Assembly (NCBI GenBank): GCA_903851455.1
Contig: CAINOM010000417.1
Location: 1 to 6,119, forward strand
Direction of reading: 5' to 3'
Source of the DNA: an uncultured Bacteroidota bacterium
GTDB taxonomy: Bacteria; Bacteroidota; Bacteroidia; Chitinophagales; Chitinophagaceae
DNA: 6,119 bases
Positions 248 to 6,036 of this stretch are shown piece after piece; positions within the stretch are counted from its first letter, which is position 1; each line of letters begins with the position of its first letter. The position numbers were made by a program, and so were the translations under genes. Below the pieces are notes generated by a model that had not been told where the DNA came from, did no database searches, and saw only the letters and a list, made by a program, of their open reading frames with translations.

Positions 248-1282
248 TTACTTTGAAGCGTATTCCTTCACCGCATCCACAAATGCCCTTGCATGATCTA
301 CCGGCACATTGGGCAATATACCATGGCCCAGGTTAGCAATATACCTTTGGGTTCCAAATCCGTCTATCATCTGCGTTACTTCTTTCTTTATCTGGCTGAT
401 GGGAGCAAGCAGTTTTGATGGATCAAAATTCCCCTGTAGTGTGGTGCTGTTGTTCGTCATCTGTCGCGCCAGTTCCGGTGTCACACTCCAGTCAAGCCCC
501 AACCCGGATGCACTTGTCCTGCTCAGATCACCAAGCGCATACCAACTGCCTTTAGGGAACAATATCACCGGCGCATGCGGGCTCACCGCATCAGCTATCT
601 GCACTAGGTAGGGCTGGGCAAACAATTTAAAATCAGCGGGACTCAGCATGCCGCTCCAGCTGTCAAACACCTGCACCAGGTCTGCACCGGCATTCACCTG
701 CGCCTTCAGGTAACCGATCGTCATATCAGTTATCTTCTGCAGCAGCCGGTGAGCAAGCTCCGGTTGTGTAAAGCAGAATTGTTTTGCCTTATCAAAGGTT
801 TTGCTACCCTTCCCTTCTACCATGTAGCACAGCAGCGTCCATGGCGCACCCGCAAACCCGATCAGCGGCACCCGGCCATTGAGTTCCTTCTTTGTGAGCG
901 ACAGCGCCTTCATTACATAACCCAGCCTTTCTTCCACACCTGTCGTTATCAGCGCATCTATATCTGCGCTGGTCTTTACTACTTTGGGTAATGACGGCCC
1001 CTTGCCCTCTTCCATCAATACCTCGAGGCCCATAGCCTGCGGTATCACGAGTATATCTGAGAAGATAATTGCAGCATCCACACCTACCTGGTCCACAGGT
1101 TGCAGCGTTATCTCGCAGGCAAGTTCCGGCGTTTCCACACGCGTAAAGAAGTCGTACTTCTCACGCAGCTTTATATAATCCGGCAGATACCTGCCCGCCT
1201 GCCGCATCATCCATACCGGCGGACGCGATACCTGTTCACCCTTTAATGCCCTTAATAACAGATCATTCTTCAATTCGCTCAT
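248..1282 (-). CDS. hemE: Uroporphyrinogen III decarboxylase
   Basis: HemE removes the four acetate carboxyls of uroporphyrinogen III to give coproporphyrinogen III, without a cofactor, in the cytoplasm. At 344 aa it has the normal family length and reads as one complete TIM-barrel domain. Family signatures are all present: [16 protein letters not shown] (21-36) with the two substrate arginines R27 and R31, FSDIL (74-78) with the key aspartate D76, [16 protein letters not shown] (142-157) with Y153, FDSWSG (206-211) with S208, LQGNFDP (282-288) and NLGHGILP (317-324) with H320. These correspond to Arg37, Arg41, Asp86, Tyr164, Ser219 and His339 of the human enzyme. The ATG at 1282 follows an A/T-rich leader ending in AACAATATAA with no clear Shine-Dalgarno, as is usual in Bacteroidota. 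It sits 40 nt after hemD and 44 nt before hemF in the leftward operon. Nothing unusual was seen. Confidence 0.98.
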
Positions 1283-2929: not shown

Positions 2930-4246
2930 TTAACCGATAAATTCGTTTATGGCTTCGATGTAATGGCATCCGGGAGCATTGTCGCGGCGCATCTTTGTTG
3001 CAAGAGTATTGATCACCTTCTGTATCTTCTCGTCCTTAGTACCGGAACAGGATGTGCCACCGGTGTCAGTGTGGCCCAGCAATGCAGGATCAATGTATAT
3101 CTGTTTCAGCTTGTTTTTCACTTCCTTCAGCACGGGCACATGCTTGCGCATAGCATACCACTCTTTGAATTCCGCTATGTGCTCTTCTATTATGGCCAGT
3201 GCTTTGGGAACTTCAGCAGTCCGCTTCTGCAATGTCTCATCCTTTATTTTAGACAGCATATCCACATCCACATAAGTGATGCCCGGCAATTTACGTGCTT
3301 CAATATCCACATTACACGGCACCGACAGATCTATCACCAGTTTGCTGCCCCTGCTCACAAGGTGCCGCTTAAACACCACCGGCTCAGGCGAGCTCGTAGA
3401 TACGATCACCACACCAGCATCAGCCAGCTCACGGTCCATAGCCTCCATTGGTGCGCATTTCAGACGCAGCTCCCGGGCTATTTCCTTAGCGGTCTCTTCG
3501 GTCCTGTTGATCAGGGTAATATTAGTAGTATCCAGATAATCCACCAGGTTGCGACATGTTGTCCTGCCTATCTTACCAGCGCCCAGTACTACGATCTTCT
3601 TCTCTTCAATATCTTTCACACTGCCGGCAAGAAAGGTGTTGTCACCAGTCATAATATGCTGCACCGAAGGGCATTTCATTTCTGGTGTTACCGATGGCCC
3701 TTCAAAATACTCCCTGATATATTGGATCGCTGCAAATGAGGTTGATACTGTTCCGCCACTCAGGGCGGTATGTGTTTTTATTGCTTTAGACGCCTGCAAA
3801 ACCGAATTAATAAGACGCTCGGTAAAAGGCCCCACAAAACCATTGGCCTTGGCCAGTTTCACAGCATTCTTTATCTGCCCTAGTATCTCATAATCGCCAA
3901 GTATCTGCGAGTCAAGGCCGGAGGCTACATGAAAAAGGTGCTCAATAGCTGCTGTTCCATTCTTTTTGTAAGAGATCGTTTCAAATTCCCCGACGTCGCC
4001 GGTGCATACACTGCACAGCATTTCTGCAAGCCGGGTGCCCGACGCCGCAAAACCATATACCTCGGTTCTGTTGCAGGTAGAAACAACGAAAAGATCATCA
4101 ACCCCGAATTCAGTTGCTTTCGATAACAACTGGAGATATTGGTCTTCGTTCACAGCAAACTGCCCCCTTACAAGGGCATCAGTTTTCTTGTAGTTGATAC
4201 CAACCACCCTGAAATCGTCAATGTTTAGCTTGTCTTTTTTGTACAT
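2930..4246 (-). CDS. hemA: Glutamyl-tRNA reductase
   Basis: HemA reduces glutamyl-tRNA(Glu) with NADPH to glutamate-1-semialdehyde, the first committed step of the C5 route to tetrapyrroles. The catalytic domain shows STCNRTEVY (56-64) with nucleophile Cys58 and GLDSQILGDYEILGQIK (110-126). The NADPH-binding domain shows VVLGAGKIGRTTCRNL (219-234), INRTEETA (246-253), VIVSTSSPEPV (280-290) and VIDLSVPCNVD (304-314). The C-terminal part (about 325-438) matches the helical dimerisation region. Length is 438 aa against 418 in E. coli. Most of the excess is a segment at about 182-211, rich in Pro, Ser and Thr, between the catalytic domain and the start of the Rossmann fold; it has no counterpart in E. 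coli HemA. The ATG at 4246 is the first gene of the leftward operon, with a good promoter about 25 nt upstream. The stop lies 1 nt before the hemC ATG. Confidence 0.97.
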   Translation of the reverse strand: MYKKDKLNIDDFRVVGINYKKTDALVRGQFAVNEDQYLQLLSKATEFGVDDLFVVSTCNRTEVYGFAASGTRLAEMLCSVCTGDVGEFETISYKKNGTAAIEHLFHVASGLDSQILGDYEILGQIKNAVKLAKANGFVGPFTERLINSVLQASKAIKTHTALSGGTVSTSFAAIQYIREYFEGPSVTPEMKCPSVQHIMTGDNTFLAGSVKDIEEKKIVVLGAGKIGRTTCRNLVDYLDTTNITLINRTEETAKEIARELRLKCAPMEAMDRELADAGVVIVSTSSPEPVVFKRHLVSRGSKLVIDLSVPCNVDIEARKLPGITYVDVDMLSKIKDETLQKRTAEVPKALAIIEEHIAEFKEWYAMRKHVPVLKEVKNKLKQIYIDPALLGHTDTGGTSCSGTKDEKIQKVINTLATKMRRDNAPGCHYIEAINEFIG

Positions 4247-4270
4247 TAGTGTTCGTAATAACTACAGGCA

Positions 4271-4302
4271 CAAAGGTAATTCGCTACATCCCCGCATTGA
4301 AA
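4271..4302 (-). promoter_or_regulatory. Bacteroidota-type promoter of hemA operon
   Basis: Read on the minus strand, TTTC (4299-4302) is followed by a 20-nt spacer and TACCTTTG (4271-4278). The Bacteroidota housekeeping promoter is TTTG, 19-21 nt, TAnnTTTG; the -7 box is a perfect match and the -33 box has 3 of 4. Transcription would begin near 4263-4266, about 17-20 nt before the hemA ATG. This is the best promoter in the window and should drive hemA to hemF. Confidence 0.75.
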
Positions 4303-4307
4303 TTTCT

Positions 4308-4364
4308 CTGTCATACCTTGGTCATATTAGCGAATGATCCTCGTCAGGTTTTGGTCAGGTAATG
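4308..4364 (+). repeat. Five phased 11-bp repeats carrying GTCA, candidate regulator binding array
   Basis: Consecutive 11-bp units start at 4310, 4321, 4332, 4343 and 4354. Four of the five begin with GTCA (GTCATACCTTG, GTCATATTAGC, GTCAGGTTTTG, GTCAGGTAATG); the third (GAATGATCCTC) is degenerate. The first two, read with two flanking bases, are CTGTCAT-ACCT-TGGTCAT, close to the E. coli Pho-box pattern of 7-bp direct repeats with 4-bp spacers. The last two are TCGTCAG-GTTT-TGGTCAG. An 11-bp period puts all half-sites on one DNA face, as in sites for OmpR/PhoB-family response regulators. The array begins 5 bp upstream of the hemA -33 box and covers the -33 region of hemH. The identity of the regulator is unknown. 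Confidence 0.6.
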
Positions 4365-4383
4365 TGTTTAGTTGTTTTCTTTG
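4350..4383 (+). promoter_or_regulatory. Probable promoter of hemH-hemJ
   Basis: TTTG (4350-4353), a 22-nt spacer and TTTCTTTG (4376-4383) approximate the Bacteroidota TTTG / TAnnTTTG promoter; the -7 box has one mismatch (T for A) and the spacer is one base longer than ideal. Transcription would begin near 4390, about 12 nt before the hemH ATG. The -33 element lies inside the fourth GTCA repeat, so a weak promoter dependent on an activator, or blocked by a repressor there, is possible. Confidence 0.5.
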
Positions 4384-4401
4384 CATCCCAATTAATTAAT
4401 A

Positions 4402-5433
4402 ATGCCAGCACAGACAAAACGCGCAGTAATACTGATGAACCTCGGCTCCCCGGAGTCAGTGGCCGTGAAAGATGTAAAAAAGTACCTTGACGAATTTCTT
4501 ATGGATGAGCGGGTTATAGATTCACCCTACCTCGTCCGTTCGGTACTCGTAAAGGGTATCATCACACCCTTCCGCGCCGCAAAATCTGCCGAGGCATACG
4601 AGTCCATATGGACCAAAGAAGGCTCTCCGCTGGTGTCTATAACCAAACAACTGAAATCAGTACTTGAAAAAGAGATAGATGAGCCGGTTGAAGTAGCTAT
4701 GCGGTACGGAAACCCTACCATGAAATCAGCCTACGATGCACTGAGATCAAATTACCCCGCGCTGGAAGAAGTAGTACTGCTACCCTTATACCCGCACTAT
4801 GCTATGTCCAGCTACGAAACAGCGGTGACACACGCCCGTACTGTGCACAAAGAAGGCAACTATCCCTTTAAAATAACCTTTGTAAAGCCTTTTTACAACC
4901 ATCCCGACTATATAAAGGCACTGGCGGAAAGCATGAAACCTTATCTGCTAAATTATCAGGGGCATTTGCTATTCAGCTACCACAGCATACCGGAGCGCCA
5001 CATCATGAAAAGTGATATGACCGGTATGCACTGCCTGCAGTCGGCCAACTGCTGTGAAACGCCCTCGCCGGCACATAGATATTGCTACCGCCACCAATGC
5101 TTTATGACCACCAAGCTGGTTACGGAGTATTTAGGTATTCCAAAAGATAAGTACAGCGTATCTTTCCAGTCGAAGCTCGGCAGGTCCGAATGGCTGAAAC
5201 CCTCCACAACGCTACGTATGCAGCAGATGCCGGCCGAAGGAATTAAAGACCTCACCGTAGTATGCCCATCGTTTGTCAGCGATTGCCTCGAAACCCTGGA
5301 AGAGATAGCCATACGTGAAAAAGAAAACTTCCTGGCCGCCGGCGGCGAAACATTTGCCTACATACCCTGTATGAATACGCAACCCGGTTGGATAAAAGCT
5401 GTCGCTGCGCTCATTGGAATTAGTTATCAGTAA
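4402..5433 (+). CDS. hemH: Ferrochelatase with internal cysteine cluster, probably [2Fe-2S]
   Basis: HemH inserts ferrous iron into protoporphyrin IX to make protohaem, the last step of the pathway; bacterial forms are cytoplasmic or membrane-associated. At 343 aa it is complete. Signatures: AVILMNLGSPES (8-19), LPLYPHYAMSSYET (127-140), LLFSYHSIPERH (189-200) with catalytic His194, VSFQSKLGRSEWLKP (253-267), and CPSFVSDCLETLEEI (288-302) with the conserved Glu297. Between His194 and the FQS motif is a cysteine-rich segment, C211-x5-C217-C218-x9-C228-x4-C233, not present as such in E. coli HemH. A class of ferrochelatases, described for Myxococcus xanthus, holds a [2Fe-2S] cluster by four cysteines in a single internal segment of about 20 residues; this protein fits that class by inference. 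The ATG at 4402 follows AATTAATTAATA, with no Shine-Dalgarno. hemJ follows after 108 bp. Confidence 0.97.
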   Translation: MPAQTKRAVILMNLGSPESVAVKDVKKYLDEFLMDERVIDSPYLVRSVLVKGIITPFRAAKSAEAYESIWTKEGSPLVSITKQLKSVLEKEIDEPVEVAMRYGNPTMKSAYDALRSNYPALEEVVLLPLYPHYAMSSYETAVTHARTVHKEGNYPFKITFVKPFYNHPDYIKALAESMKPYLLNYQGHLLFSYHSIPERHIMKSDMTGMHCLQSANCCETPSPAHRYCYRHQCFMTTKLVTEYLGIPKDKYSVSFQSKLGRSEWLKPSTTLRMQQMPAEGIKDLTVVCPSFVSDCLETLEEIAIREKENFLAAGGETFAYIPCMNTQPGWIKAVAALIGISYQ

Positions 5434-5541: not shown

Positions 5542-6036
5542 ATGTACCACTACGTCCTGGCATTACATATCATCTTCATCGTTACCTGGTTTAGCGGTAT
5601 ATTCTACATCGTGCGCCTGTATATCTACAATACAGAAGCCAATGATAAGGCCGAGCCGGAAAAAAGCATCCTTCAAAAGCAATTCAATATCATGATCCGT
5701 AGGCTGTGGTTTGGCATTACCTGGCCATCTGCTGTGCTCACACTCATCTTTGGCCCGTGGATGTGGTACCTCTGGGGGCACCTTGACAACTGGCTGGCTA
5801 TCAAATTGTGCTTTGTTGTTGGGCTGTACGCCTATTTCTTCACCTTGCATGCCATCTACAAACAGCAATCGAAGGGCGTCTTCAAATACACATCCGGGCA
5901 GCTGCGCATATGGAATGAGGTGGCCACGATCTTCCTCATAGCCATCGTTATGCTGGCAGTAGTGAAGCAGGGCATGAGCTTTGTCTGGGGCATCTCAGGA
6001 CTGCTGCTGTTCGTCGTTTTTTTATTAGAATTTTAG
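5542..6036 (+). CDS. hemJ: HemJ-type protoporphyrinogen IX oxidase, membrane protein
   Basis: A 164-aa integral membrane protein of the HemJ (formerly UPF0093) family, the likely oxidase of protoporphyrinogen IX to protoporphyrin IX. Signatures: LALHIIFIVTWFSGIFYIVR (6-25) with the conserved His9 in the first helix, RLYIYN (25-30), a second helix at about 57-77, AIKLCFVVGLYAYFFTLHAI (86-105) with Lys88, and LRIWNEVATIFLIAIVMLAV (121-140) with the family's R-x2-NE motif (R122, N125, E126). Predicted membrane segments are near 4-26, 57-77, 86-105, 127-143 and 147-163. The position after hemH supports the role, since HemJ would make the substrate of HemH; with hemF upstream the terminal three steps are all present. 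In cyanobacteria HemJ binds haem b through the helix-1 histidine. The tail ends hydrophobic (FLLEF), lacking the basic end I would expect; a T7 run lies just before the stop. Assignment by motif, not by alignment. Confidence 0.9.
   Translation: MYHYVLALHIIFIVTWFSGIFYIVRLYIYNTEANDKAEPEKSILQKQFNIMIRRLWFGITWPSAVLTLIFGPWMWYLWGHLDNWLAIKLCFVVGLYAYFFTLHAIYKQQSKGVFKYTSGQLRIWNEVATIFLIAIVMLAVVKQGMSFVWGISGLLLFVVFLLEF

Follow-up and report, generated by a model that had tools for sequence, protein, structure and literature searches.

A putative composite operator between hemA and hemH in a genus of the Chitinophagaceae

The intergenic region between hemA and hemH, the genes for an early step and the final one in haem synthesis, in an uncultured Bacteroidota bacterium of the Chitinophagaceae contains a conserved 39-bp element spanning positions 4309-4347 of the window, by which we mean the whole 6,119-nucleotide stretch of DNA that was analyzed. 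The element comprises two modules, a direct repeat on the left and a CRP/FNR-type palindrome on the right, and is very probably a real conserved operator. Judging from sequence, it may well be a composite one, with a predicted OmpR/PhoB-type regulator acting on the left module and a response regulator of the REC-CRP type, linked to cbb3 oxidase genes, acting on the right; we give this fuller reading about an even chance of being correct.

The haem gene cluster and its phased GTCA words

The element lies within a cluster of haem synthesis genes running in both directions. Leftward, on the minus strand, hemA (2930-4246) encodes glutamyl-tRNA reductase (TIGR01035, 242.7 bits against a cut-off of 209.55; Pfam GlutR_N). 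Behind it follow hemC (2011-2928; TIGR00212, 284.9 bits, cut-off 164), a likely hemD for uroporphyrinogen-III synthase (1323-2021; E = 2.4e-13, under the family cut-off), hemE (248-1282; TIGR01464, 431.3 bits, cut-off 302.95), and the start of hemF, which is truncated at the window end (3-203; Pfam Coprogen_oxidas, E = 5.2e-18). Rightward, on the plus strand, hemH (4402-5433) encodes ferrochelatase (TIGR00109, 261.5 bits, cut-off 124.6) and is followed by a HemJ-like UPF0093 gene (5542-6036; PF03653 over its cut-off, TIGR00701 below). The start codons of hemA and hemH are separated by 155 bp (4247-4401).

Within this intergenic region, the word GTCA occurs at exactly four positions, 4310, 4321, 4343, and 4354, all of which fall in a single 11-bp phase. 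The original prediction had proposed shuffled intergenic sequence as a check on the density of these phased words, and the shuffles failed to match it. In 20,000 shuffles of the 155-bp region that preserved dinucleotides, four phased GTCA words were never reached and three were reached in 3 shuffles, while no 4-mer at a period of 10 or 11 attained four phased copies in 5,000 shuffles. As a separate observation, the hemE coding sequence contains another GTCA-N7-GTCA pair at window positions 480-494, probably by chance.

A conserved element upstream of hemA

To the alignment of hemA promoters we admitted 30 loci of the same genus in a single orientation, with the window included and L001 omitted as a duplicate of L002; the HemA proteins of the other loci are 55-80% identical to that of the window. 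The element, with the approximate consensus AATTTnn TGTCAY-N5-nGTCATTTnAG-N4-TGATTnTnRTCA, is present in all 30 promoters. Mean information per column amounts to 1.43 bits in the direct repeat and 1.33 bits in the palindrome, falling to 0.27 bits in the 24 columns past the element; these statistics rest on a repeat pattern that all 30 loci satisfy, so that the invariance of the repeat columns is partly by construction.

The left module (4309-4330, plus strand) is the direct repeat TGTCAT-N5-GGTCATATTAG, whose GTCA words at 4310 and 4321, 11 bp apart, are kept in 30/30 promoters. The right module (4335-4346) is the palindrome TGATCCTCGTCA, of the form TGAY-N4-RTCA, in which TGAT at 4335-4338 pairs with 4343-4346. 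It is intact at +25, counted from the first GTCA, in 26 of the 30 promoters, and the word at +33 (4343) reads RTCA in 28 and exactly GTCA in 16. Beside the left module, in the hemA -33 region, lies a conserved block of AATTT (4301-4305) with a mean of 1.53 bits per column across the 30 loci.

The array as first described is redrawn by this alignment. Aligning the promoters of relatives had been suggested as a check, and the words at 4310, 4321, and 4343 indeed appear constrained, being kept while the flanks drift. The fourth GTCA (4354-4357, plus strand), at +44, is not conserved and is nearly private to the window, with 2 of the 30 loci carrying it. We therefore retain three of the four phased words and reject the arrangement of five 11-bp units laid end to end: GTCA occurs at +22 in none of the 30 loci, the third unit (4332-4342) instead holds the conserved TGAT of the palindrome, and the fifth unit is not conserved. 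The pair at 4343 and 4354, which had been taken for a variant Pho box, is likewise abandoned, because 4354 is unconserved and what is conserved on the right is a palindrome of the CRP/FNR type, which is also found at another operon (see below). The nearly private fourth word is what speaks for a chance pattern devoid of function. Against such a pattern stand the conservation of the element, its spacing, its orientation, and its company with hemH, together with the shuffle result, and we consider it extremely improbable.

The position of the element relative to both core promoters agrees with the earlier suggestion of an element immediately before the core promoter of hemA, placed to serve both genes. 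The hemA -7 box TACCTTTG (4271-4278, minus strand) is 39 bp from the first GTCA in 28/30 loci and 40 bp in 2/30, and the hemH -7-like box TTTCTTTG (4376-4383, plus strand) lies 66 bp from the same word.

A profile built from sequence only (R1), applied to the 150 best first-look candidates of each genome, found its best match at the hemA promoter in 31 of the 35 genus genomes (E = 1.3e-7 or better), G018 being the 31st genome with the element at hemA. In the remaining genomes, the best match of G025 was at hemH, and G023, G010, and G032 gave weak matches; G023 and G025 yielded no hemA start. Plasmid records searched with the region returned no match. The strict pattern TGTCAYN6GTCATWW has 60 matches in 34 of the 35 genomes (27 at hemA, 16 at hemH, and 17 elsewhere), compared with 48 for the reversed pattern in the same 35 genomes. 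Across 13 further genomes, the perfect form TGTCATN6GTCATTT is found at hemA in 9 and has 4 matches elsewhere, 2 of them in genomes where hemA is matched too; when one mismatch is tolerated, the same 13 genomes show no excess (93 matches versus 165 for the reversed pattern). The specificity of the repeat for haem genes holds for the strict form only, and degenerate boxes would be missed.

The element at hemH, its losses, and its depth beyond the genus

hemH was found in 31 of the 35 genus genomes, and 30 upstream regions were examined, the hemH of G022 being without its 5' end. It is divergent from hemA in 8 of the 30, in seven of which the repeat lies 65-66 bp before the -7-like box. In the eighth (G033), the hemA-proximal repeat is 142 bp from the hemH box, and a second, decayed copy is located nearer hemH. 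The remaining 22 hemH copies are split from hemA. In 17 of them the repeat is present and oriented as it is in the window, at a distance of 64-67 bp in 12 and of 52-55 bp in 4, and far upstream in 1 (L204). The 64-67 and 52-55 bp classes are roughly one helical turn apart. The repeat was not found at five of the 22 split copies (L200, L205, L206, L211, and L221), two of which, L205 and L211, have a half-site that was seen by eye. At split hemH copies the palindrome is often missing, and the AATTT block was not seen there by eye.

Two genomes of the genus, G010 (92% complete) and G032 (97% complete), gave no match for hemA or hemH, and no full-length element was found in either by the profile scan of the best 150 candidates per genome. 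Both have probably lost haem synthesis, and the losses of hemA and hemH in the two may represent one event.

Beyond the genus, we collected 80 hemA loci from named records, one of which (L103) is without upstream DNA. All 23 Chitinophagaceae-like loci of other genera with upstream DNA have a GTCA-N7-GTCA pair before hemA, compared with 0/56 of the others, which are mostly Flavobacteriales. Loci were classed as Chitinophagaceae-like by HemA identity and by the titles of their records, and some of these titles give other groups. Among the 23 loci, the palindrome is found at +25 in 5, and hemH is the divergent neighbor in 17. The repeat is also present in both of two same-family genera and, at the level of the order, in 4 of the 10 genomes having hemA (23 searched), with the hemA start extrapolated in some. 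Three loci of other genera (L090, L092, and L094) have three GTCA words in perfect 11-bp phase upstream of hemA, a longer version of the repeat.

Like the window, the Flavobacteriales have conserved sequence upstream of the -7 box of hemA, but it is an unrelated block containing AACGC (counted with a crude pattern in at least 42 of the 56 other loci), and the neighbor in place of hemH is an AraC-like gene (50/56 by sequence pattern, with Pfam checked on one, L111). Positions 4247-4401 of the window contain no AACGC block, and the divergent gene is hemH. By eye, a palindrome TTTAGA-N5-TCTAAAT was seen before many of the araC starts (L105-L160 and L162, but not L108 or L161). The AraC-like neighbors lend some weight to the idea that a protein from a different family binds the repeat, such as an AraC-type regulator, with two helix-turn-helix units on successive turns of the DNA. 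However, the flavobacterial AraC regulator, which was considered and rejected as a candidate, has no clear orthologue in the genus (best E about 1e-13 to 1e-19, in the C-terminal part), and the conserved block at the AraC-neighbored hemA loci is a different one. We regard binding by such a family as rather unlikely.

Candidate regulators of the two modules

The first GTCA pair had been described as similar to an E. coli Pho box, a likeness that is borne out by matrix scores. On a PhoB matrix derived from 32 E. coli sites given in PMC10294691, the left modules of the 30 hemA promoters score 11.6-19.7 with a median of 15.3 (16.0 for the window), close to the range of 11.4-24.7 and median of 16.9 obtained for the E. 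coli sites themselves, which are selected sites scored on their own matrix. For 1,160 background stretches of 230 bp the median of the best scores is 3.8, and for the 56 other hemA upstream regions it is 6.7; the median of the hemA modules is attained by 46 of the background stretches, some of them overlapping real sites. As in the E. coli Pho box, the left module consists of TGTCA-type direct repeats 11 bp apart (30/30). Here, by contrast, the repeat lies at haem genes, is attached to a CRP-type palindrome, and has no recurrent phosphate target by the strict pattern.

The tandem half-sites and their invariant 11-bp spacing are consistent with the OmpR/PhoB-type regulator that was initially proposed, although a search for the corresponding gene did not identify a candidate. 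Genes with PF00486 (Trans_reg_C) number seven in G002 and five each in G010 and G032, and in this comparison none of the OmpR-family genes was convincingly lost together with the haem genes. One candidate for such a co-loss, L255, was dropped because matches of 65% identity or more occur in only 5 of the 35 genomes, its own included. A hemA-like repeat precedes OmpR-family genes at 0 of 15 loci, where the hemA repeat matrix gives 3.1 at best. Upstream of PhoB-type genes, the best PhoB-matrix scores are 14.6 in G032, 9.1 in G010, and 8.0 in G002.

Alternatively, the left module could be a genuine Pho box to which the organism's own PhoB binds, and haem synthesis would then belong to the phosphate regulon. 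This would account for scores like those of E. coli PhoB sites, and PhoB is the nearest NCBIfam family of a response regulator in G002 (L246). Nevertheless, L246 falls under both cut-offs for the PhoB equivalog (210.7 versus 296.2 and 204.7 versus 270, in a scan of four of the seven genes of G002), and G010 and G032 keep PhoB-type genes (L247 and L244) without a hemA-like element. Furthermore, at 13 of the 17 other places matched by the strict pattern, which degenerate boxes would escape, the neighboring genes seemed by eye mutually unrelated, and no phosphate gene was recognized. We consider membership in the phosphate regulon improbable.

For the right module, a candidate regulator is suggested by the operon at which the palindrome recurs. 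In the five genus genomes examined, a group of genes including those for a FixG-type and a FixP-type protein (Pfam on G002) precedes a gene for a PAS histidine kinase, which is followed by a response regulator with REC, cNMP_binding, and HTH_Crp_2 domains; in the window's own genome, where the contig is short, just the end of this arrangement is visible. Around the PAS-kinase gene start, 28/30 loci have the palindrome TGAY-N4-RTCA, in a scan that included 60 bases within the gene and omitted the split kinase gene of G033, and a pair 22 bp apart occurs at 16/30, as counted with the looser TGA-N6-TCA. PF13545 has five matches in the window's genome (G000), two of them over the cut-off, one being the REC-CRP protein. 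Because G010 and G032 retain this operon without hemA and hemH, it is not dedicated to haem.

FNR/FixK-type boxes have the consensus TTGAT-N4-ATCAA. The right module is similar to them in its TGAT-N4-RTCA palindrome and in its link to cbb3 oxidase genes, but the candidate regulator is no Fe-S FNR: it is a receiver-CRP fusion whose gene follows that of a PAS kinase. In addition, the palindrome is combined with a direct repeat. In Pseudomonas aeruginosa, Anr and Dnr control hemF and hemN, according to a title cited in PMC8510549. In the window's own genome, hemN adjoins the REC-CRP regulator (L299, contig C668, 101-1495; TIGR00538, 443.8 bits, cut-off 324.95), and a TGAC-N4-ATCA palindrome (L299, about 77-88) lies 12 bp before its predicted start; this neighborhood was not seen in G002, G006, G010, or G032. 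Sites of the form RTCA-N10-TGAY-N4-RTCA were also noted upstream of other genes (L069, L071, L073, L074, L075, L080, and L082), some near proteins with the CxxCH haem-binding motif, and are possible wider targets of the CRP-type regulator.

The recurrence of the palindrome raises the question of whether one CRP-type regulator reads all of the GTCA half-sites, with the second GTCA as the right half of a decayed palindrome 22 bp upstream. The 14 bp from this word to TGAT reproduce the geometry of the PAS-kinase tandem palindromes, which are 22 bp apart. The alignment, however, has no TGAY at +3 with which the second GTCA could pair, and the invariant first GTCA would be left unexplained. In addition, other genera and many split hemH copies have the repeat without the palindrome. 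A single regulator for the whole element seems unlikely to us.

We thus favor the composite operator, in which a predicted OmpR/PhoB-type regulator would bind the 11-bp direct repeat and the predicted cbb3-linked REC-CRP response regulator would bind the palindrome, activating both the hemA and hemH promoters. Counting against this reading are the 4 of 30 hemA promoters without an intact palindrome, the presence of the palindrome at +25 in only 5 of the 23 loci of other genera, its frequent absence from split hemH copies, the 5 of 22 split copies that lack the repeat, and the search for an OmpR-family gene, which singled out none. We infer activation from the place of the repeat, immediately upstream of the -33 region in a promoter whose -7 box is standard, and from the shift of roughly one turn of the helix in the hemH spacing. 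On this reading, a need for cytochromes in low-oxygen respiration would raise hemH and the hemACDEF cluster in concert, provided that a second signal permits it. Both Pho boxes and boxes of the FNR type are already known, and the element would work like the one joined to the other, which does not assign it to the Pho regulon. Our searches of the open-access literature found no described operator of hemA or hemH in Bacteroidota, and likewise no such composite operator.

For the Chitinophagales more widely, we put forward, tentatively and as less probable than not, an ancestral composite operator at both ends of the haem pathway. A dedicated Pho-box-like repeat, bound by a new, haem-specific OmpR-family regulator, would be joined, in the window's genus and some relatives, by a palindrome for the cbb3-linked REC-CRP fusion to form a two-input gate, the phase of which to both promoters would have been kept through the break-up of hemA and hemH. 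If the composite reading is true, the element offers an exact 39-bp target for the study of haem control, with shared and split hemH promoters as a built-in comparison and with G010 and G032 as natural losses. One of its halves would also come with a named candidate regulator, and the supply of haem would be linked to the cbb3 oxidase. If the two-input gate is true as well, haem supply would be matched to low-oxygen respiration.
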